Of a stretch of DNA of 64,000 nt, positions 2,441 through 15,627 are shown piece after piece. This stretch comes from Tricholomella constricta. Lineage: Eukaryota > Basidiomycota > Agaricomycetes > Agaricales > Lyophyllaceae. The stretch lies in NCBI GenBank assembly GCA_013368375.1, contig JAACJP010000032.1:62001-126000 (forward strand). Direction: 5' to 3'. The position numbers and the translations under genes were made by a program. The notes beneath the pieces were generated by a model. The model saw only the letters and a program-made list of their open reading frames with translations. It was not told the DNA's origin and made no database searches. Positions within the stretch are counted from its first letter, which is position 1. Every line of letters begins with the position of its first letter.

Positions 2441-2605
2441 AGATAATCGACTGCCGGACTTGATCACTACGTGTCCGCGGAGGGGAGCAGACGGGATGTC
2501 CGCGGGGTCGGTTTGGGATGTGTTGGCGGTGTTCATTTGTGGGGGAGGAGTGCCTGAACAGGAGCCTGGACCTTTATGGTGGCTTGGACCGAGCATGGGA
2601 AGAAT

Positions 2606-2805
2606 GTTTAAGCATGGGAATTTTATGACAGACTTCAACTAGCGTGGGAATAATGGGTCAGAACTGGCGTGGGAATCAATGGTCAGAACTAGCGCCGGAA
2701 CAATGTTGGTCAGAACTAGCTGGAAATAATTATGTCAGAACTAGCATGGGAACAATTACGTCAGAACTAGCATGGGAACGATTATGTCAGAACTAGCGTG
2801 AGAGA
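2606..2805 (+). repeat. Left tandem array, about 33-bp unit
   Basis: About six degenerate copies of a unit reading roughly TCAGAACTAGC-RTGGGAA-nnATT follow one another up to the start of the first element gene at 2891. The copies differ by substitutions and small indels. Position inside the left end of the element suggests a subterminal or promoter role. Confidence 0.75.
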
Positions 2806-2890
2806 ATACACACAACTTCTGTTGATCCCTCTTCTCCCAACTCCTGCCACCTAAAACCGCTCCTTTCCGATCACTCCGCGCATACACATT

Positions 2891-4691
2891 ATGTCCGACA
2901 CCACCGCATTCACCAGCATTGACGCGGACATCCACCAGGCAGTGGAAATCGGCGATAGAGAAGCCTTTCGGGCGTTGTAGACAAAGCGGTATGTTCTTCA
3001 ACACACTGTGCTTCATCCCTCTTACTAAATATTTTTTCAGAAAATTGTCTATAGACAGGCCAAGGCCAGTACGGAGGCCGATGTCATAAAGGCCCGCTCG
3101 TCATCGCTCCTCTGGGCCACCATGTGACTGGTGCAAAAACTCGCCCGGGACAAAAAGGACAACGGCGCCTTTAATGGGCTTCGAAAAGCGGTGGATGCCC
3201 AACCGGCGCCGGCGTCCGCGGGGCGCACCGCAGTAGAGGAGGCGAGGAAAATGGCCGCGGACTTGGCCAGAAGGAAAGCGGCCAAGATGGACAGGGAGCT
3301 GAAGGAGAAGGCTGCGGAGGAGAAGAGGAGGGCCGCGGAGGAGGAGGCGGAGAAGAGGAGGGCCGCGGAGGCGGAGAGGACGAGGGCTGCGGAGGCGGAG
3401 AAGGTGCGAAGGGGCAAGAAGAAGGCGAGGCAGATAGGGAGGCGGAGAGGGAGAGGAAGGAGGCAGAGAGGGAGAGGAAGATTTTGGAGGAGGAGGAGAG
3501 GGCGAGGGCGGAAAGGGTGAAGGAGAGGCACAGGCGGAGAAGGCCGCCCGCAAGAGGGCCACGAAGGAAAATGCCGCGGAGGTCGAGCGGAGGGTGCAGG
3601 AGGCAGAGAGAGAGCGGCGGAGGAAGGAGAAGGGTAAGGATCGGGAAGTCGGAACGTCCGCGGGGGCAGACCCCGGTGAGTTCATTTCATTTTCTTACCA
3701 TTGCTACACTGACAGTTTTTGTTTCCAGTTCAGCCTCGTATCCGCGTGGTGGACCCCCTTCCCAAGGCGGGGCCATTGTTCCAGGAGCTGGCCAGGGAGG
3801 ACGCCTTCATGACCCCCCCTGCGGACGGTGCACCCGAAAGGCATTGGAGTGCAGGGTGCATGGCGGAAGGGCCGCGGCCTGCACCCCATGTAAGTTCGCA
3901 AAGCAGTCCTGCGTCTTCCCAGTCGAGGACGACGCTGGCGCGCTTTCAAGTGAGTTCCAGCTTTGTTTTCTTTTCTATTTCATTGACCTTATCATTTACC
4001 CTTTGCAGCAACTCCCGCTGCCCAGCCCATGACCGCGGACGCCGCCAGCTTGATTGCAGACCTGCAGACCGCTGTCGCAGGATTGCAGATCGACCTGAAG
4101 CGGTTGAGGAAACAGGATGCAGCGAGGGCCGCGGAGTACAAGGTCCTCAATCTGAGGGTCTTGGAGCTTGAGGCGCAAGAGCGGGAGTTGGAGTCCCAGT
4201 CGCGGGACTGCTTTGGGCAGCTGGATCGCCACCGCAGGGGGTTGAAGAAGTTGAACGAGCAGCTGATCACGGTGGAGGATGAGGTGACCCCCGTGGCCGT
4301 CCCCGCGGCCACCCCCGCTGATGAGGACATGGACTCTCGCCCACCTCCACCGCCCACCTCGCCCCCTCCGCCACGGCCTGCCTCTCTCCCTCCACCACTG
4401 CCCACCTCTCCCCCTCCACCACCGCCCACCTCTCTCCCTCCACCGCTGCCCAAGTCTCCCCCTCCACGCCCTCATGCGGAGGCCGCGGACCCGGATGCTG
4501 GCGGATTGTCCACCACAACCACTCCACCTCCGCCCCCATCCACCCCGCCTGCCATCCCACAAGCTCCAGCTTGGAGCCCCACTGGTGCACCTGCACCAAG
4601 CATGCCAGAGGACTCAGAGAGTGGTGCTCGGGGTGTCAAGCGCAAGGCCACGGACCAGGGCGAGAGGCCCTTCAAAAAACATGCAGCCTAA
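2891..4691 (+). pseudogene. KDZ-element accessory gene 1: coiled-coil, zinc-cluster-like, proline-rich protein (broken)
   Basis: Starts at ATG 2891 and reads about 29 codons before a TAG at 2978-2980. The frame resumes in the codons just before a GTATGT donor (2989), and an intron ends at a TTTTTTCAG acceptor near 3041. Later segments are: a long K/E/A/R-rich coiled coil (about 3230-3420, with a frame change afterwards), a cysteine cluster CGRCTRKALEC then CTPCKFAKQSC (about 3826-3930), an intron (GTGAGT to TTTGCAG, about 3950-4008), a second coiled coil (4050-4260), a Pro/Ser-rich stretch (4330-4480) and a basic tail VKRKATDQGERPFKKH that looks like a nuclear signal. The cysteine pattern resembles fungal zinc clusters without matching Zn2Cys6 exactly. 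The stop and frame shifts mean this copy is probably inactive. Confidence 0.6.
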
Positions 4692-5184
4692 TTGGACTTG
4701 GCTCGGGGGCTGTTTCTTGATATCTGGAAGTTGATGTACACTGTCGGACATCCCGCGGACTTTCTCTTTCTTGCACTTTGTAGTTATGCACATTCTCGGA
4801 CACCTCGCGGACTTTTTTCTTCTTGCAATTTGTGATTGACGTAGACTTTTTGGACGCACCGCGGACCCCGCGGACCTTCTTGAACACACAAAGTACACTT
4901 GTATATATTATTACATTAGACAATTACATACAATCAATGGAAAATGTTGACACAGGTGTACCATAGACACATCTGTATATACTCCTATGGCTTTCAAAGT
5001 ATATACAATCAATCAAGTATATACAAACAAACAAGTATATACAAATATTCAAAGAATTGATGATTAACATTGTGAACCACTGTAAATCATCATCACCATT
5101 TCAAAAGCATATACAGAAGGTCAAGTATATACAAACAATCAAGCACGTTGTGAACTATTGAAAAATCATCATCACCCTACAAAG
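4692..5184. other. Spacer between convergent accessory genes
   Basis: No gene. The first half still carries CCGCGG sites (near 4752 and two near 4860). The second half is AT-rich with several scattered copies of a CAAGTATATACAAAC-like motif (about 4995-5145). It probably holds the 3' ends and polyadenylation signals of the two converging genes. Confidence 0.5.
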
Positions 5185-7559
5185 CTAGCGGCGCTTTGAT
5201 CTGCTGGTGCCAACCCCCGCGGACCTTGATGTTGTAGCTCGCGTTGCAGCCCCATTACGTGTGCGGCTGCCCCTGGTATTGGAACTGGCACCAAAGTCCG
5301 CGGCCTCCGCAAGCAGTAAATCCTGCTTTGATTTCTTCCGCCTAGTTTGTCCTTCAACATGCTTGCGCTTGCGTGTAACCGGAGGTGGGGGTGGAGTTGG
5401 TGTACCAGGCGGAGAGGGAGTAGGAGTGTTGGGTGGCGGAGTTACCTCGTTGAGCAGCTGCATTGCAGTTGCCGGCACCATATACTGTGGCAGCCCTTCG
5501 CCAGGCCCATTGATGGGTGCCTGTGTCGGAAGTCCGCGGGCATTTAAGCGGTGCATTGTTGTTTCGTCAATGGTGACCTGAGTTTCATTGATGTTCAGAC
5601 CATATTCATCAGTCTGTTCTCCAGGTCCGGGTATGTTGGATGCTCCGCGGGGTGTGTTGGGTGGTCCATGGGAGTTGTTTTCTTGTGATTGATTCTGATT
5701 GTGTTCTGAGAGTTCATCGGGTGGTCCGCGGGGTCCGTTATCCGGTAATGGATTGAATCCCAGGGGTGTCGGATGTTGGTTTTCATCTGGTTGTTCCCCG
5801 TCACTGCCTTCCAGGTCCGACATTGGAATAAGGCTTTCTAAGGGGTCCGGAGCTGGTGCTTTTTTTTTGCCCCTCTTCTGCCTTGCTTTCTTTGCTGCTG
5901 CCGCGGCAGCCAAAGCTTCCTGGTCCTTTCGCGCCCCATAGACCGCCTCCATTCTCTCCTTTTTCTTGGTCAAGTAACTGGACCAGCGAAAGGTCTCTGA
6001 GGGTCCAAGCCTCTTCTGGCGAGAGCGCCAGAAGTCGAGCAAATCCCGGAGTTCATTTAGTCGGAGGTTCTGTGGGTCTTGAATTCGGATGTCCGCGGGC
6101 ATGTACTCCGCGGAGATGAACATTCCATTGTCTGCTTTTATGGAAGTGAATGGAGGGGACGAGTAGAGGTGTCCTGATGCTAGTTCTGTAAGGAAATTAG
6201 GATAGGTGTGATATGATGTCAAAAAGTTATCACTTACTGTAATGATGTTTCAGGAATGCGCGGACCAGAAGCTCAAGGTCATCTTTGCTCTGTTGCACAC
6301 CTTCTACCAACTCCGGTAGAATTGGAAAACTGTCATTTTGTTGATCCAGCTGTAGATTTGGATGTGGCTGAATTACTGTATCAGTCTGATGCAGGTCTGA
6401 TGCAATGGATTCTTGGAGGGAAAGGACATAATCCATAAGCTTTCTCTTGAAATCCTTCACCATGTGCGGAAAGGTATCAATGAAACCTTTACTGATCACC
6501 CCTGCATTTACCGCAATGCTGTCGTGACTGCTCCGCGGCGGACATCAGCGCAAGTCCACGGAGTCGATGAACAACTCACGCCCGGACATTTAGTTGCCCA
6601 TCTTGCCCTTTCCATACCACAAAGGTAAGGGACAGCATGCCCATCTCTCGCTACCGGTTGAGATCCTCATTCTCCACTCGTTGAAAGCCCCGCTTATCTG
6701 CATTCCTGAGATGAGAGAGTGTCAACTCCGCAATGTCCGCGGACGCTGCGGAGTCACTCACTTGCACTGCTCCTCAGGAGGATAGCCCTTGGTGCTCCAC
6801 TCACGGTGGAGTAGGCTGAATCGCTCTTTGCTTCTGGCTTGGAATGGTAATGTATTCTCGTGAAGATCTTCCTGTCTGATCTCCCGGATTGTTATCTACG
6901 GCTGACTAATGCTCGGAAGTCCCTGCCAAACATGTACAAATAGCGTCTGCGGTGGCTCCTGCGCGCTCAGAGTAGTGCTGCCGCGCTACTCCAACGGGCA
7001 GTGGCCTCTGCCTCCTGGGGTTGTTGTGGAGTAAGTTTATTCATCACCTGTGCCAAAGCCTTGGTGCGTTGCTGAAAGGCCGCGGGGGCCGATTCATCGA
7101 CCTCCTCGAGCCCCAGTATCTCTTTCAACTCTTCAGTAATCAAGTTGCGCATTGTCCGATTGACTACCTGCCGTGCAGTAACCTTCAATTTTCCCGATGA
7201 CTGGTTGACCATTGGGTAGGGCCTCCAGTTGTTCCTTACCCAGTCTGCCCGTTTCTGTGTGCTGATCAGTGTGATGACTCAGGGATACTCCCAACCTGAC
7301 AGACCGTGGTGGCAGACGCGGACTTCTTATCGGTCTTTGGTTCTGTTCCCTTTGCCTTCCAGTAGTTGAATATATCAACAAGGACTTTGTCCTTGAAAAT
7401 GGCCGCCCTTTTGTCCTTGTCCGACTCTGATCGGTACTCCTCTCGGTACTTGTTGAGGACCGCGCGCTCGTCAGCCGGGTACTGGGGCTGCTTGCTTGTC
7501 TTCTTCAGGGCCGTGGGGGCATGTGGGACTGTTTCCGGTGTGAAAATATTTTCGGACAT
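5185..7559 (-). pseudogene. KDZ-element accessory gene 2 (minus strand, broken)
   Basis: Read from ATG 7559 downwards. Exon 1 encodes a charged N-terminus (DERAVLNKYREEYRSES...AAIFKDKVLVDIFNYW). A GTTGGG...GGGCAG intron leads to WVRNNWRPYPMVNQSSGKLK. Further down are a WSTKGYPPEEQ segment, an intron with a CCGCGG site inside (about 6767-6713), an in-frame TAG after ENEDLNR (about 6653), then a helical exon from 6499, a clean GTAAGT...TTACAG intron (about 6240-6189) and a long exon ending at 5185. That exon holds a helical domain, then an Ala-rich/Lys-rich stretch, a Pro/Asn-rich linker and a basic C-terminus. I know no function. It resembles conserved hypothetical proteins accompanying KDZ transposases. 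The premature stop argues that this copy is dead. Confidence 0.6.
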
Positions 7560-7812
7560 GGTGGAGCTCCGTTAAAAATTTCCTATTTGGGTCACAAAGG
7601 GTTGAACTCCATGTTTGACAGTTGTCCCACAGTCCCGCATTTGGCAAAGAAGTTTCCAGTTTGGGTAATATAAGGCACTTGTGCATTGATGGCTCCGATT
7701 GTGAGTGCAGCTGACATTGCACAACCATGAGGACATGTCCGAGTGTAATCAGTGATCCATCAGTAGACAGGTTCTAATTTTTCCACCATATCAGATCTCA
7801 CCCTTACCCACC

Positions 7813-10800
7813 ATGTTGCGTGCAGTAAAGCGCACACGTCGCAAGAAGGATGAAGTCTTTCAGGAAAGTTCTTGCTCACATGCCATGGATGTCGAGACAA
7901 CAGTCAGGCATACCCAGAGGGGTGACATTGTGGAATCCAGGAGTGTTCCTTTGCGCAAGAGGTCACCGGGTCCTGCTACATCTGTCCCTCAGGGTGTGCA
8001 GGCTCATGTCCAACCCTTTGAGCATTCAGACATCCACTCAACAGAGCTGAATGACACCACTGATGAGGTTGCCCCCAAACGGGCCAAGGTGAATCGTTCT
8101 TTGAAGTAGTATCTATCTTTAACTGAATCACAGCACAGACCCAAGGTGATTACCTTCAAGAATTTGTGAACCATGTTCCAGAGTTGTTGAAGGGGCTACT
8201 TGGGAGAGAGTACATTGAGAATCATACTCAATGTTCTGATTGTCCCAAGGGCAACTATGGATGTTGGCGTTGTCGAGACTGTCTCAGTGACAGGATACTC
8301 TGCCGGGGTTGCATGCGGACAACTCACAGGGACAATCCTCTGCATCGCATTGAGTTCTGGACTGGTCAATACTTCCAGACAGCTCAGCTGCAGGAGGTTG
8401 GTACCTACTTGCTGGTCCCTCACTCCTCCGGAAAAGCACTCTGTGATACGCTACAGCTGCAACAGGAGCAATTGGAGAATTACCAGGTGGAATACGACGA
8501 TAAAGAACAGAAAAACCACCGCACAGAGCAGCAAAATGACCCCGCGGGTCGACATGCCAACTCCGCGGATGCCGCGGACGTGACTGAGCAGACTTCCTAT
8601 GATGCAGAGGACAATGATTACATGGCGCGCTTGAGCCGTGCTTATGGTCAACAGCCAGAATTTCATCCAATTGCTGAGGCAGGGTCTACTCTGGACACAG
8701 TTGAAGTCGAAGTGGACGAGGAAGATGACGATGACACTGGCCTTAATGATGACCTTCCGACGAGAATGCCACGGCACGATGCCTTCAACAATCGTTATGT
8801 GCGCCTTGTACATGTCAATGGAATTCACTACATTCCACTTGTCTACTGTTCATGCCGCGGAGTCCGAGAGGTCAATACAGACCTGATGCACAAGCGATTG
8901 GTGCCTGCAAACTTCACACGGTACAATACGCTCTTTACCACTGCAGTCCTTGATAACTATCGCCTTGCAAACCTGGAATGTAAGGCATCTGCATTTCAGT
9001 ATTGGCACAAGCTCAGCCGGACTACGGCTGCAGCAACAAGCTCTGCGGACATCGACAACTTTTATCGCGAACTCCGCCGGCTCTCGCGTTCATGGAGATG
9101 GCTCAAGAAGCTCAAATGGGGTGGTTTTGGCAGCAATAACAGAGATCCCATGCAGACCAATCGCAGGGGAGCTTGCCATCTTTTGTCCAACATGTCCGCA
9201 GCCAGGTGCGAATCTCCCCGCGGGGTGGTCCACGGACCCGAATAAGTGAGTGCATTTGGTGACAATTATTCATCGTTATTGACATTATACGCAGAAAAGT
9301 ATACATGAGGTCTTTTGTTGCAGATGGCAATTTCAAAGCGGATCATGTTCGCCAAAAGAACAATGCCATGGATGTTTGGCTGTCAGAAGGGTCAGGTATG
9401 ATGGCTAACCGGGCCAATTATAATGAGTTCCTGAAGGAAGCATTCAATGTGATGACAGTGAGTCCAGTCCGATCACCCCCGCGGCATAGCCCACGGGGTT
9501 CATCAACCCCGCGGCGTTCTGTGCTAACCTCTATTTTAGAAAGCCCCTTGCGAGAATCAGTTCCGCGCTGTTGAGCAGGCAATGCTTGTGTCCAAGGCCT
9601 GTGATGTTAAAGGAATTGTAGCCATTGCATGTGCGCGGCATGGCTGTTTTGCCCCCAACAGCCTGTCGGACCTCCACGCGGGTGAGCAGCAAAAGAATGT
9701 GGACTGGGCATTCCTCCAGGCGCTTAAAACAACAAATGTGGAAGACATTGACCAGGTGTTATTGATCTATGATATTGCCTGCCAATACATGGTACACTTT
9801 CTAAAGCGCATCGGCCACCTACTCCCCCCAGGAATGACTATTGCTCAGGCCATTGGACTACTCCATGTTCATGGTCACAAAGACGATTGCTTTAACCGCT
9901 TTGCAACTTCATTCATTCCAGGTGCTGCTATAGTTGCGGGTGAAATTCTGGAGAGTTTGTGGGCCGTGTTGAACACTGTGTCACCAATGACCAGAACCGC
10001 AACGTTGGCACACCGAGCGGAGATCCTGGACGATCATATGAATGATTCTAACTGGAAGAAACTCCTGCAGATGTGTTAGTAAAATTTCATGTATTCTGTT
10101 ACCATCACTGACAATGTCCGCGGAGTAGCGATCACATTGTGTCGGACATATGAAAAGGCAACGGAGATGTTGGAGACTGCCCAAGAATATTTCAAAGGTG
10201 TCGCTTCAGGAATAAGCCGCACACAAACCGCAATTTGGGAGGCGGAGATCCAGGAGGCCGAGCGGAGGAGGGTTCATGATGTGAAGGCTATGGACATCCT
10301 CAAAGTGCGCACCGCGGACATTGGGCAGCCGGGAGATTCCAATGGACCTGTGCAGCACTCAACAGCTGAAGAGGAGTGGATACAATCAGGCCTTGATCTT
10401 GAGGAGCACCAGTAAGACATTTTATCTCTATTTGTCTTCCGGAGCTGAACAGTTTCCATCTAGAATTGGCCTTCAAGACAAAGTCTGCCAACTTGTGCAC
10501 GAGCCGCGGGAAGATGTCCGCAAGGCCGTCGAAACTGAAAGGCAAAGCCTACGTGCACAAATTGATGTGTTCACATTAAAACAGCTGAGCATAAACTTCA
10601 TTCCTTCAGCCTCCGCGGAGGATGTGCCAGTGAACGTCGAAGCCTTTGACAACCTAGACGAGAATCCTGCGGACCTGCCACCCTCCGGAGACGCCGCGGC
10701 GCCCGCACAAACACGCTCCCGTCCTGTCAGTGCAACAGACGGACCCCTACCACCAGAGCAGACACCTATTCGCCTGCCATCCTCAGCTGGGGAAACTGAG

Positions 10801-11534
10801 ACACATCTGGCTAAACTCGAGCTTGCATTGCGCAAGGTTCAAGCGGAGCGCCATCTGCATAACCTCCGCAATGCAATTGCGGAGAAATCATTTTTATACT
10901 CACATGTCATCCGAGTTGCTCCGCGGAAGGGTGTGGTGACGCGCGCGCGGGGTAACATCACCACCCTCAACTACACAATCACCACCCTTTGTCGGGTGTA
11001 TGACAAATGCAGAGCAAAGCTCGTCTGTCTGGGTGCGGATGAAGGCACACTGGAAAGATACAAAATTCTCGACAAGAAGCATGTGAAATCAAGCACCGCC
11101 ATACTGGATCCCAACACACCAGGTTCAACTGATATCCGAAGTACCAGTCTTTCCTGGATTTGGCAAATACCTGGTCAAGCGACAGATAGTCCGGAGGCTG
11201 TGCTGGAGTGTATGTCCTTTGGCGTCAACCCCGCGGAGTTGTTACTGACATGATACCAATAGTCCAACGTGTTCATTTCTTGAGGGCAAGGGCACAAAAG
11301 GATCGATGGACAGAAGAATTCACTCTTGTTCAATATGAAATGACTTGGACCACCCGGTATTTCCTTCATCAGGCCCAGATCTGGATAGAGCGCGGTGCGG
11401 AGGCCGCAGCTGCAGGACAACTGGGCCCGACAGCATATGCACGGCGGAAGACAGCCATGTGGACGGAACTTGCTTGGTTGGCAGAGCAACGATTTAAAGA
11501 AATAAATCACTCATATGTAGCATTGGTTCAGTAG
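7813..11534 (+). pseudogene. KDZ transposase with CxC2 cysteine cluster (frameshifted)
   Basis: Six introns can be traced: 8089-8138, 9246-9294, 9458-9539, 10075-10125, about 10412-10452 and 11210-11262. Domain order: basic N-terminus, a CxC2-type cysteine cluster at about residues 120-155 (CSDCPKGNYGCWRC, CRDC, CRGC, then TTHRDNPLHRIE), an acidic linker, the KDZ core (LVHVNGIHYIPLVYCSC, RRLSRSWRWLKKLKWGG, FCPTCPQPG, VADGNFKADH, LLIYDIACQY, LHVHGHKDDCF, GEILESLWAVLN), and a long helical C-terminus. Likely metal-binding acids are the D of ADGNF, the D of IYDIACQ and the E of GEILE, by analogy with the family. The frame shifts by one base between LKKLKWGGFG and GELAIFC (about 9120-9165), and the splice at 10411/10453 is also out of phase, so this copy is probably inactive. 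Three of the introns contain CCGCGG sites. Confidence 0.85.
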
Positions 11535-11794
11535 AATGATCATGATTACAATGTCCACGGACCTGACTCGTTTCATGTCCACTGTTTAGCCATCTCACTC
11601 CTCAGCAATTTAAGAGGTGTCAACCCATGATTCAAGGTAACATCCGCGGACAATGTGGGTCATGTCCGCGGACTTTGTTGTCACATGCCCTGGTCACATG
11701 ACAGTGTGAAATTAAATGAACCATGTGGCTGTGGCAAGAGACTTTTCTCCTCCTGTTATCTGATCCTTTATCGCACCCACATCCGAGCAAAGCA

Positions 11795-13423
11795 ATGCCT
11801 TCCTCCACACTCAATTTCATTGAATCAGAGAGCTTCTTGCATCCGATGCCGGGCGGGGCCGCAGTTGACCTCCAGGAGGTGCTGTACTACTGTGAATCCC
11901 GCTTTCGTGTTGCACTAGTGAAGTATGCCGGTGTGGAGAGTGCGGAGGTCCGCGCTTCCATGCAGCGCCACTTGGCCGCGGAGCTTGTATGTACCGCCTT
12001 TTGATCTCAGACCATGATATAATTCCCCCCAACTATAGGATTTTGCATTGGTGTTTGTTGGTGCTGCCACAAGCATGATGGCCGCGTGCGAGGTGCCGAA
12101 TTTTCTCCGCCTTCTCGCCTACCATTTCTATAGGCAGCCCCAACCTCAAGGCCCACTTGTTCTCTCAGATGCACTCATTCTTGCACTGGAGGGAGCCATT
12201 CCGCTCGAGCATCCTGTGGCCGCTGCCCCTGAATATGCCTGTGACTGGTGGAAGGAGCATGAAGACAATGAGCTTCGTGAGCCGCTCAGTCACGACACGT
12301 TGGAGGAATGTCTTGTCCTTCACCGGTTTCATCAACAGAAAGCTCCGCCACTTCGAGTGCCGTGGACACTAGGAACTCTGGAAGCCTTGCAGCAGTGCCG
12401 GGTTTGAGACAATATTCGAAGCCCATGGATACCAGAGCGCCCGCCGTGCTGCGGCATTTCACACCATATTTGAGGCCACAGTACAAAAGGCGGACGCCGC
12501 GGGCCCCGCGGACGCCGACATTGACATGAGCCCCCTTGAGCTCTTTGACATATTTGACCCAAAGGCAACGGAGGGGCCACTGGGATCAGACTTTGGGGTG
12601 GGTCTTCCTTCAGGGGAGGACATGGGGGAGAATTCGGATGAGGAGTCAAGGGAGGGCTCCGACAGCCCTGCAAGATATGACCCACTCGGAAACAATGTTT
12701 ACCAGCCCAGGGAGCTGCTACCCCACGAATTTCCTGATCACTTCCGCGGGCCGCCATTCGAAGGTGCAGAAATTGAATATAGAAGTTACTACCAGCAACC
12801 CAGAGAATGCGACTTTCACATCGAGTACAACGTTCCCGTGTACACAGGCTCCGCGGACACTGAAGGTAACACAATTACTTACCTACCCTTGTCCATTGTT
12901 AATTAAACCCATTCAAGGCCAAACAGCACCCGGTTCTGAGAGTGAGGATGAGCCCGCGGAGTCACCAGGTCCCAATGAGGAGGACGCTGCAGTACCCGAC
13001 ATTGAATTCTCTGACGAGGAGGACCCCGCGGAGTCGCCAACACGTCAACCCAGCATCACGTTTTCAGATGATGAGGACCCCGAGGCACCTGAACCCAATG
13101 TCATTGTTGAGCACCCTGCTGAACCCGACATTGAATTTTCTGACGAGGAGGACCCCGCGGAGTCGCCGGCGCGTGAACCCGACATCATCACCTTTTCAGA
13201 TGATGATAGCCCCGTGGAGGTCCTGTCTCTTTCGGATGACTCAGGTGAGGAAGGGGTTAGAGTCAGGACCCGAAACCCTTGGAGACCACCCATTGAAATG
13301 CTTGAGGGCTTATTGCAATTTTCAGACAATGAAATCAATGAGGAGCTTGCAATTGCAGTACCCCGCGGACAATACACCGCTGCCTCCTTTGCTCACATAC
13401 CGTCCAACATTCTAGATGATTAG
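11795..13423 (+). pseudogene. KDZ-element accessory gene 3: acidic repeat protein (one frameshift)
   Basis: ATG 11795; exon 1 to 11986, intron 11987-12038 (GTATGT...CTATAG), exon 2 from 12039. The N-terminal half is a folded-looking helical domain (LYYCESRFRVALVKYAG, FVGAATSMMAACEV, LLAYHFYRQP). Near 12395 the frame must move by one base to continue into GFETIFEAHGYQSARRAA, so this copy carries an indel or my model misses something. An intron at 12866-12917 leads to the last exon, which encodes acidic repeats of the type IEFSDEEDPAESP and ITFSDDEDP, likely casein-kinase-2 targets. No function known; position directly after the transposase suggests a transposition co-factor. Confidence 0.6.
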
Positions 13424-13690
13424 GGGTGAAAGCTTTACTTACCTTGGACACTTTCTCATTTTTTTTGGCTGATAATGGAAATACATGTCATGCATATATG
13501 AGTCCTATAAATGAAACATAATGAGCAGGGACACCCCAGAAATAGTTGGTAAATTAAGGTTGGAAGAGAGAGAGAGGGCTTTGATGCATGTCCGCAGATG
13601 TGGTTGTTTTAAAAAGGGAACAGAATGGCGCATCAGGGTATCAACAATGAGCCCCGCAGACCGCTAGCCCCCCCAACATCACATGTTGCA
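13424..13690. other. Spacer after accessory gene 3
   Basis: AT-rich, no ORF of interest, a short GA run near 13566-13576. Probably 3' UTR and terminator of the preceding gene. Confidence 0.4.
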
Positions 13691-13705
13691 TGCAGGCCAC
13701 AAACA

Positions 13706-14725
13706 ACGATCCGCGGAGGTCCGCAGATCCCTGCCACCCTGCCCCCCCACAGCACTGTATAGGCCCGCTGCAGCACCAGCGGGCCCGCTGGTACAGTGCC
13801 ACACGGCTACATGTAGGGGCCTGCTGGCGTTGCAGCGGCAACGATCCGCGGAGGTCCGCAGATCCCCCGCTAGCCACCCCGCTGCACCGTATCAGCTGCG
13901 CAGTACTGGGTGTGCCCACGGACAACTATCCGCGGAGGTCCGCAGATCCCTGCCACCCTGCCCCTCACAGCACTGTATAGGCCTGCTGGTACAGTGCCAC
14001 ATGGCTACATGTAGGGGCCCCGCTGGCACCGTGCCACACGGCTACATGTAGGGGCCCCGCTGGCGTTGCAGCGGCCCCGCTGGTGCCGTCAAGTACGCTA
14101 CATGTAGCGACCCCGCTAACACCGTGCCACACAGCTACATCATTCCAGCGGAGGTCTGCAGATCCCACCCTGCTGCCCAAACGGCACCATATAGGCCCGA
14201 ACCGTGGAGGTCCGCAGATCCCCCGCTAGCCCCCAACGGCACCATATCAGCTGCGCAGTGCTGGGTGTGCCCACGGACAACGATCCGCGGAGGTCCGCAG
14301 ATCCCCCGCTAGCCACCTCACTCCCACCCCAACGTATATACAGTGCTGGACAACGATCTGCGGAGGTCTGCAGATCCCCCGCTAGCCACCCCGCTGCCCC
14401 CCACCCCAACGCATATGCAGTGCTTGCCCACGGACAACGATCCGCGGAGGTCCGCACATCCCCGCTAGCCACCCCACTGCCCCCCACCCCAATGCATATA
14501 CAGTGCTGGGTGTGCCCACGGACAACAATCCGTGGAGGTCCGCACATCCCCCGCTAGCCACCCCGCTGCCCCCCACCCCAACGCATATACAGTGCTGGGT
14601 GTGCCCACGGACAACGATCCGCGGAGGTCCGCAGATCCCCCGCTAGCCACCCCACTGCCCCCCACCCCAACGCATATACAGTGCTGGACAACAATCCGCG
14701 GGGGTCCGCAGATCCCTGCCACCCT
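13706..14725 (+). repeat. Right subterminal array with palindromic CCGCGG core
   Basis: Eleven copies by eye (near 13711, 13851, 13930, 14150, 14203, 14281, 14355, 14441, 14528, 14619, 14694). The core is GATCCGCGGA, then GG, then TCCGCAGATC; the second half is the reverse complement of the first with one mismatch. Most cores continue with CCCGCTAGCCACCCCGCTG and, further on, ACAGTGCTGGGTGTGCCCAC. Copies are 70-140 bp apart. Some have C-to-T or G-to-A changes at the CpG. The array has no coding capacity of its own. Subterminal repeats of this kind often serve as transposase binding sites. Confidence 0.85.
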
Positions 14726-14890
14726 GCCCCCCCCCCCTCACAGCACTGTATAGGCCCGCTGGTACAGTGCCACACGGCTACATGTAGGGGCCCCGCTGGC
14801 ATTGCAGCGGCCCCGCTGGTGCCGTCAAGTACGTTACAATGTATTGCCCCGCTGGACAGTGGGACACACTACATTGTAATGCCCCTACCT
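13785..14890 (+). repeat. Second interspersed subterminal repeat with CTACATGTAG core
   Basis: Interleaved with the previous array are about six copies of CAGTGCCACACGGCTACATG followed by TAGGGGCCCCGCTGG (near 13795, 13995, 14030, 14085-14125 as variants, and 14764, 14830-14885 as degraded versions). CTACATGTAG is itself a perfect 10-bp palindrome. The last copies (ACATTGTAATGCCCC near 14870) mark the approximate right end of the transposon. Confidence 0.65.
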
Positions 14891-14940
14891 GGGTGGAAGT
14901 CCTCCTCAGTCCTCATGATGAAGTCCTGGGAGTGAGCAAT

Positions 14941-15106: not shown

Positions 15107-15271
15107 TGACAAGTCTGTCGATTGCTACGTATAGGTGAAGGTTGTATATACTTATTTAATGTAATGAATTAAATAGGCAACACCAGAAGGTGTTGCCAAA
15201 CAATAGCGTAATCGTCTCGATAAGATACAATTAGATAACTGATATTAGATAAGATAGTGGGCGCCCTTACA
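15107..15271 (-). repeat. Short LTR of the right Gypsy-like copy
   Basis: On the minus strand it starts TGTAAGG at 15271 straight after the polypurine tract AAAGGGGGG and runs for about 145-165 bp; the far end is uncertain because a gag remnant begins near it. It shares with the left LTR a 9-bp hairpin (15176-15184 with 15189-15197) and an AT-rich segment. The sequence between those landmarks has diverged. Confidence 0.6.
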
Positions 15272-15627
15272 TACCCCCCTTTAAGATCGCGTGTAGCGAT
15301 CTTCACCAGGAACTTGGGCAGGAAAAGAGAATAAAAGGAGGGTCTAGGTCCTGGCAACCTAGACCTATCAAATAATGCAAGAGTACGTAGGTATGATACG
15401 TATTCTCGACTTAACGACAAGTGGATGCATTAGCGCCACTGCACGGCCTCAAAGTGCCGTGCGACGATGAGTGGTGGTGAAGACATCCTATGTTGCGTTT
15501 ATACGCAACCTGCGGAGTGCTCCTCGGGAGTCAGGTGGTCTGCACCTGACAATGGTGGTCACCCCGGCGGTGTGCCCTACGTGTCGAGGTCGGTTTGTTG
15601 ACAGGGGGATTAGGTTGTCTCCCCGAC

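Follow-up and report, generated by a model that had tools for sequence, protein, structure and literature searches.

A stretch of 64,000 nucleotides from the basidiomycete Tricholomella constricta (contig JAACJP010000032.1, positions 62,001 to 126,000 of the forward strand; henceforth the window) carries a Kyakuja-like KDZ DNA transposon that is filled, exons included, with the palindrome CCGCGG and that contains, upstream of its transposase gene, a gene for a protein with a zinc-cluster-like domain (gene A). We regard the chances as about even that this element encodes the protein that reads the motif spread along it, a system that would most likely serve sequence-specific anti-silencing. The computed results are that the motif is enriched, independently of codon use; that two distant KDZ families lack it in the 6 kb sampled of each; that its sites are both conserved and turned over; and that gene A is linked to the CCGCGG-rich families.

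A preliminary description of this DNA had put some 60 sites in 12.3 kb, against about a dozen elsewhere, and counting bears this out: 59 of the 70 CCGCGG in the whole window lie at 2441 to 14750, and 11 lie in the other 51.7 kb. Within the element, CCGCGG is the commonest hexamer as well as the most overrepresented palindrome, with 59 occurrences against 7.07 expected from the element's own trinucleotides (z 19.5; Poisson tail 9e-34), the next palindrome being GCTAGC (z 7.7). When the 3' repeats were left out (2441 to 13600), 52 sites remained against 5.99 expected (Poisson tail 9e-31). The flank at 15500 to 64000 is poor in the word, which occurs there at 0.21 per kb and falls outside the eight top palindromes; the hexamer count once proposed as a check upholds the enrichment. 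The parts of the element, according to gene models drawn by eye, are as follows.

2441 to 14891, plus strand: Kyakuja-like KDZ DNA transposon, with 59 CCGCGG, KDZ and CxC2 domains and the right terminus.
2891 to 4691, plus strand: gene A, with a basic charged region, a six-cysteine (Zn2Cys6-like) cluster, a second charged region and a proline-rich tail.
3820 to 3912, plus strand: the six-cysteine cluster of gene A, CX2CX6CX9CX2CX6C.
5185 to 7559, minus strand: gene B, in which the open reading frame at 5188 to 6249 holds eight CCGCGG.
7813 to 11534, plus strand: gene C, KDZ transposase with CxC2 and KDZ domains (Pfam).
9540 to 10076, plus strand: exon with the KDZ domain, with zero CCGCGG in the window copy.
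11795 to 13423, plus strand: gene D, with acidic repeats (gene model).
13697 to 14730, plus strand: 3' subterminal repeats, with seven CCGCGG in units such as GATCCGCGGAGGTCCGCAGATC.
14847 to 14891, no strand assigned: right terminus ending GCCCCTACCTG, common to the copies C31, C51, C11a and C1 and to the short element L053.

As had been described, the sites are found in exons on either strand as well as in non-coding stretches of the element. The exons that were counted hold 39 sites in 6527 bp (5.98 per kb) and are denser than the remainder (20 sites in 5924 bp, or 3.38 per kb), which still includes some uncounted gene B exon. Codon use, already rejected in the preliminary description, was ruled out as their source, since 1000 synonymous-codon shuffles gave 6.3 exonic sites on average and never more than 14, far below the 38 seen. 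Most exonic sites (30 of 39) are read as x-Ala-x (NCC GCG GNN), with 7 and 2 in the other two phases, as if they sat where the protein tolerates them. The statement that most sites belong to a longer palindrome did not hold, the full TCCGCGGA accounting for only 16 of the 59. Around the core, the adjoining base in the element body is A in 49% of cases (both strands counted), and the preference is limited to the nearest bases; no sign of even spacing or helical phasing was found in the body (coefficient of variation of the gaps, 1.1; R 0.10).

The assignment to KDZ transposons was supported by gene C, in which the KDZ domain (PF18758) scored 125 bits against a cut-off of 26.6 and CxC2 scored 63.5 against 27; no Pfam match was found for gene B (two pieces scanned) or gene D (two pieces scanned). 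The right end, formerly placed at 14750, actually lies at 14891. The left end at 2441 was taken from the preliminary description and the first sites, at 2475 and 2500, and no left terminus of the window copy was found when termini were read against other copies. Outside the genes, we observed a tandem repeat of about 26 bp (GTCAGAACTAGC...) directly upstream of gene A (2637 to 2800), and the gap between genes A and B, whose ends converge there, holds 18-bp AAGTATATACAA repeats (4997 to 5161). The transposon is itself flanked by an inverted pair of 46 nucleotides (2127 to 2172 and 15261 to 15306; 83% complementary) that by eye resembles Ty3-type long terminal repeat ends.

DNA-level comparison was made within this one species (44.1 Mb in 118 contigs) on the few copies that were fetched. 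Five of the ten fetched places (C31, C51, C11a, C11b and C1) are motif-rich over about 14 kb, and the other five look interrupted or truncated. The C51 copy is complete, with 77 CCGCGG in 13.77 kb (5.6 per kb), CA..TG ends and the target duplication AACTTTG, and the enrichment is thus present in other genomic copies, where the preliminary description had proposed to look for it. Complete copies span CACATACAGG to CCTACCTG, and all five elements read at both ends by eye (C31, C51, C11a, C1 and L053) have CA..TG termini and a 7-bp target duplication. Genome-wide, TCCGCGGA occurs 1584 times, versus 616 for the reversed word, and pairs of CCGCGG 3 to 30 bases apart number 915 versus 175. Compared with C31, C51 and C11a, the window at 2441 to 13423 shows 88 to 94% DNA identity in genes B and C and 76% in the gene D region, and for the gene A region there was no match of at least 150 bp among the matches listed; this unevenness suggests module exchange or very uneven rates.

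Across the transposase region, 26 close loci (L001 to L026, 2.6 to 3.5 kb) hold 8 to 21 CCGCGG each. A second subfamily (L027 to L030), consisting of four nearly identical loci (99.9%) with 62% DNA identity to subfamily 1, holds 23 to 25 in 3.5 kb (6.5 to 7.1 per kb), most of them at positions that differ from those of subfamily 1 and flanked by different bases; the KDZ exon of its locus L030 has one CCGCGG, unlike that of the window copy. In L051 and L052, which represent two distant KDZ families of this genome, no CCGCGG occurs in 6 kb each. The former has a word of its own, TGGGCAAGACC, restricted to a terminal array within the 6 kb seen; that array lies at 1115 to 1702 of the fetched piece (G000:C20:112500-118500), and according to the genome listing, copies of this family carry such arrays, inverted, at both ends. 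At G000:C7:672164-693690, 21 kb separate a gene A match from a KDZ exon, and the interval holds TGGGCAAGACC arrays and a distant KDZ gene, as though one KDZ element had inserted into another. A search of viral contigs for the KDZ exon found nothing.

Comparison of the two subfamilies showed that 6 of 18 comparable subfamily-1 sites are identical at the same position in subfamily 2, versus 240 of 3095 for other hexamers and 6 of 93 for other hexamers with two CpGs (p 0.004). Among the 24 subfamily-2 sites, 6 coincide with a subfamily-1 site, 6 face gaps and 12 face hexamers with one to four differences; density kept with turnover of sites is what this looks like. The flanks change as well, an observation that rests on two subfamilies: the adjoining base is A in 43 to 60% of cases in 11 assembled subfamily-1 sequences and in 31 to 62% in L001 to L026, and in subfamily 2 it is C in 59 to 62% and A in 10 to 13%.

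According to the preliminary description, a longer palindrome had been seeded across the element and was losing its CpGs. The second half of this claim stands: CCACGG/CCGTGG occurs at 3.1 times expectation in the element body versus 0.74 times in the flank, CCGCAG/CTGCGG occurs at 1.5 versus 0.61 times, and subfamily-1 copies that are without a site often show CpG transition products there. A single seeding followed by decay is too simple an account, since subfamily 2 is denser at mostly other positions. Outside the motif, the observed-to-expected ratio of CpG is 0.63 in the element versus 0.98 in the flank. Among recent copies, pairwise CpG retention is 92.1% in the motif, 81.0% at other CpGs and 87.2% at CpGs in a G/C context, and per-position retention in subfamily 1 differs from that of all other CpGs at p 0.0495 (the retention counts left out the decayed loci L005, L007, L008, L009, L025 and L026, and the per-position test used 13 non-redundant loci of the other 20). 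These values are weak evidence that subfamily 1 loses its motif CpGs more slowly than other CpGs.

Gene A is the candidate reader. Its copies share the cysteine pattern CX2CX6CX9-10CX2CX6C, which a scan of the spacing found in the window and at 6 of the 10 fetched places, and all six cysteines are invariant in a six-row alignment (A1). The spacing lies within that of fungal Zn2Cys6 clusters, C-x2-C-x6-C-x(5-12)-C-x2-C-x(6-8)-C, and the only Pfam match of gene A is to PF00172. Pieces with their halves swapped scored 19.3, 20.0 and 21.2 bits over most of that profile, whereas two native pieces similar in length scored 13.9 and 17.8; the cluster is apparently fungal Zn2Cys6-like with its halves in swapped order. 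Foldseek returned 24 matches, led by Pho7, Gal4 and Put3, and protein searches (7992 candidates sharing most words scored; 67 candidates in a second search) returned only the host's own gene A protein, P0046, publicly named as a Zn(2)-C6 fungal-type domain protein. A sequence search of the Protein Data Bank gave two matches at an E value of about 0.5, to HIV Tat, and a coiled-coil heptad test was uninformative (155 of 300 shuffles reached the observed value). In the window copy, the cluster lies in a different frame from what precedes and follows it in gene A, whereas C31, C51, C11a and C1 read through. In the second CX2CX6C half, the subfamily-1 types seen have CK(Y/F/H/L)AKQSC, and subfamily 2, with a gene A version at C45, has CRDKKRHC. 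Further six-cysteine motifs, unlike gene A in sequence, occur near CCGCGG-rich copies at L041 and L045 (places C20 and C9).

Both CCGCGG-rich subfamilies carry gene A upstream. At 32 of 39 gene A places, a KDZ gene of subfamilies 1 to 3 follows on the same strand within 30 kb (two of 41 rows, C23:666736 and C5:143270, were further pieces of listed loci and were dropped), and none of 56 distant KDZ places, picked from longer match lists in which some rows are pieces of the same gene, has a gene A match upstream within 15 kb. The idea of a distributed protein-binding site, already voiced in the preliminary description, thereby gains indirect support, through the link of a zinc-cluster-like gene to the CCGCGG-rich subfamilies.

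A zinc-cluster-like gene together with 60 to 80 zinc-cluster-type sites would most simply make a self-labelling element. We propose that the gene A protein binds CCGCGG, which would consist of CCG and CGG half-sites set back to back and presumably bound by a gene A dimer, with preferred neighboring bases that would differ by subfamily. With 59 sites in the window copy or 77 in C51, such a protein could coat the whole element and, once bound, might keep CpG methylation or closed chromatin off members of the family. Four points lead us to favor anti-silencing as the use: sites occur throughout the body, the element is depleted of CpG, C5 methylase matches exist in the host, and VANDAL elements behave in a comparable way. 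A fuller version seems plausible to us, with the chances slightly against it: the family would have spread the target of its own zinc-cluster protein along its full extent, in coding exons too, to serve as a sequence-specific self-label; the motif flanks and the half of the protein presumed to read DNA would have changed in concert between subfamilies; and the system would be a fungal counterpart of VANC with another fold, an alternative to the TET demethylase gene near other KDZ families. If this is true, the pair would offer a natural protein and motif for studying the coevolution of recognition and, for mushroom transposons, an alternative to TET/JBP capture that can be tested. No title among the literature matches listed describes a zinc-cluster-carrying KDZ transposon or a dispersed CCGCGG word.

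Several observations weigh against the proposal of a self-encoded reader. Native gene A pieces score 11.4 to 17.8 bits, under the PF00172 gathering cut-off of 21, and we therefore call the domain Zn2Cys6-like rather than a filed member of that family; its structure matches also fall short of significance (best Foldseek E value, 0.35). Gene A identity ranges from 44 to 100% within subfamily 1 while the motif flanks stay alike, so that protein and motif do not simply diverge in step. At 7 of the 39 gene A places, no such KDZ gene lies within 30 kb; a third group with a gene A match, located at C31:130215, C20:69856 and C50:30787, has one CCGCGG in 701 bases and none in 351; and a diverged gene A in the distant KDZ families could have been missed. 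Furthermore, GCCGCGGC is not enriched genome-wide (1146 versus 1343 for the reversed word), and per-position retention in subfamily 1 shows motif CpGs to be no better kept than CpGs in a G/C context (p 0.60).

The main rival to anti-silencing is use in transposition, with which it may coexist; CCGCGG within the subterminal repeats may also contribute to assembling the ends. In its exclusive form, which we think unlikely, CCGCGG would bind the KDZ transposase (or the gene B or D protein), the body sites would aid synapsis or the choice of copy, and gene A would have another role. Arrays at both ends are a general habit of transposase sites, and the element L053 (4.25 kb), which shares the ends of the window family and in which no transposase gene was seen, consists largely of inverted subterminal arrays filled with CCGCGG; the distant L051 family likewise has its own word in arrays at both ends. 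However, that word is terminal only in the 6 kb seen, and end binding therefore needs no body sites. In addition, the transposase exon is 77 to 80% identical between the subfamilies, yet motif flanks and gene A differ strongly.

That the motif is read by a host factor, either a zinc-cluster regulator or the methylation machinery, recruited by the element or marking it, appears quite improbable to us. Zinc-cluster regulators are common in fungi, the C5 methylase matches lie in the host, and the CpG depletion of the element suggests methylation; however, the motif is family-specific, being absent from 6 kb of each of the two distant KDZ families in this genome, and flanks that differ by subfamily are hard to square with a single host reader. 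A neutral origin by mutational or gene-conversion bias, or by fragments of the subterminal repeats spreading into the body, would fit some of the sites, which sit in repeats local to genes A and D and to the element ends, but was already disfavored and is very improbable, given that the body sites show a preference in the nearest bases only, that CpG decay opposes a word with two CpGs, and that the sites exceed other hexamers in conservation between subfamilies and far exceed the codon shuffles.

The self-encoded reader can be set beside several known systems. Kyakuja of Laccaria bicolor is described with 7-bp duplications and CA..TG termini (PMC12730594) and shares these with the present element, along with the KDZ and CxC2 domains; the element adds the zinc-cluster-like gene, the dispersed CCGCGG and the inverted subterminal arrays. 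A TET demethylase gene is found near other KDZ families. In the present genome, 23 TET/JBP matches were listed; 13 have a distant KDZ place within 10 kb (on C67, C5, C33, C10, C42, C27, C14, C29, C56, C50, C22 and C51), versus 1 within 10 kb of a KDZ exon of subfamilies 1 to 3, and a weak match lies near the KDZ gene of L052. All 13 are below the Pfam cut-off and none of the 6 matches above it adjoins these KDZ places, so that the link rests on weak matches; no TET/JBP match was found inside the C51 copy, the nearest being just outside its left end.

Transposons of the CACTA En/Spm type have subterminal transposase-binding repeats and resemble the present element in that a short word forms inverted arrays at each end, but here CCGCGG also fills the body, exons included. 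Pdr1 and Pdr3 are zinc-cluster proteins. In yeast they bind TCCGCGGA and TCCGTGGA as consensus pleiotropic drug response elements, a site common to yeast and the transposon with CCGCGG as its core; these are elements of host promoters, four of them in the PDR5 upstream region (PMC5539612), whereas here the word is spread over a transposon, and the gene A cluster differs in the apparently swapped order of its halves.

A further likeness is to the VANDAL elements of Arabidopsis, which encode VANC anti-silencing proteins, each the transposon's own and sequence-specific (PMC5735166). In both systems, a short family-specific word builds up in the element, the words of related elements differ, and a candidate reader is encoded by the element itself; the VANC motifs form tandem repeats in non-coding parts, whereas here 39 of 59 sites lie in the exons counted. 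If our proposal is true, self-labelling would seem to have arisen independently in fungi, by way of a zinc-cluster protein and sites in coding sequence. The CCGCGG and gene A system may work like VANC, without being filed as VANC-type.

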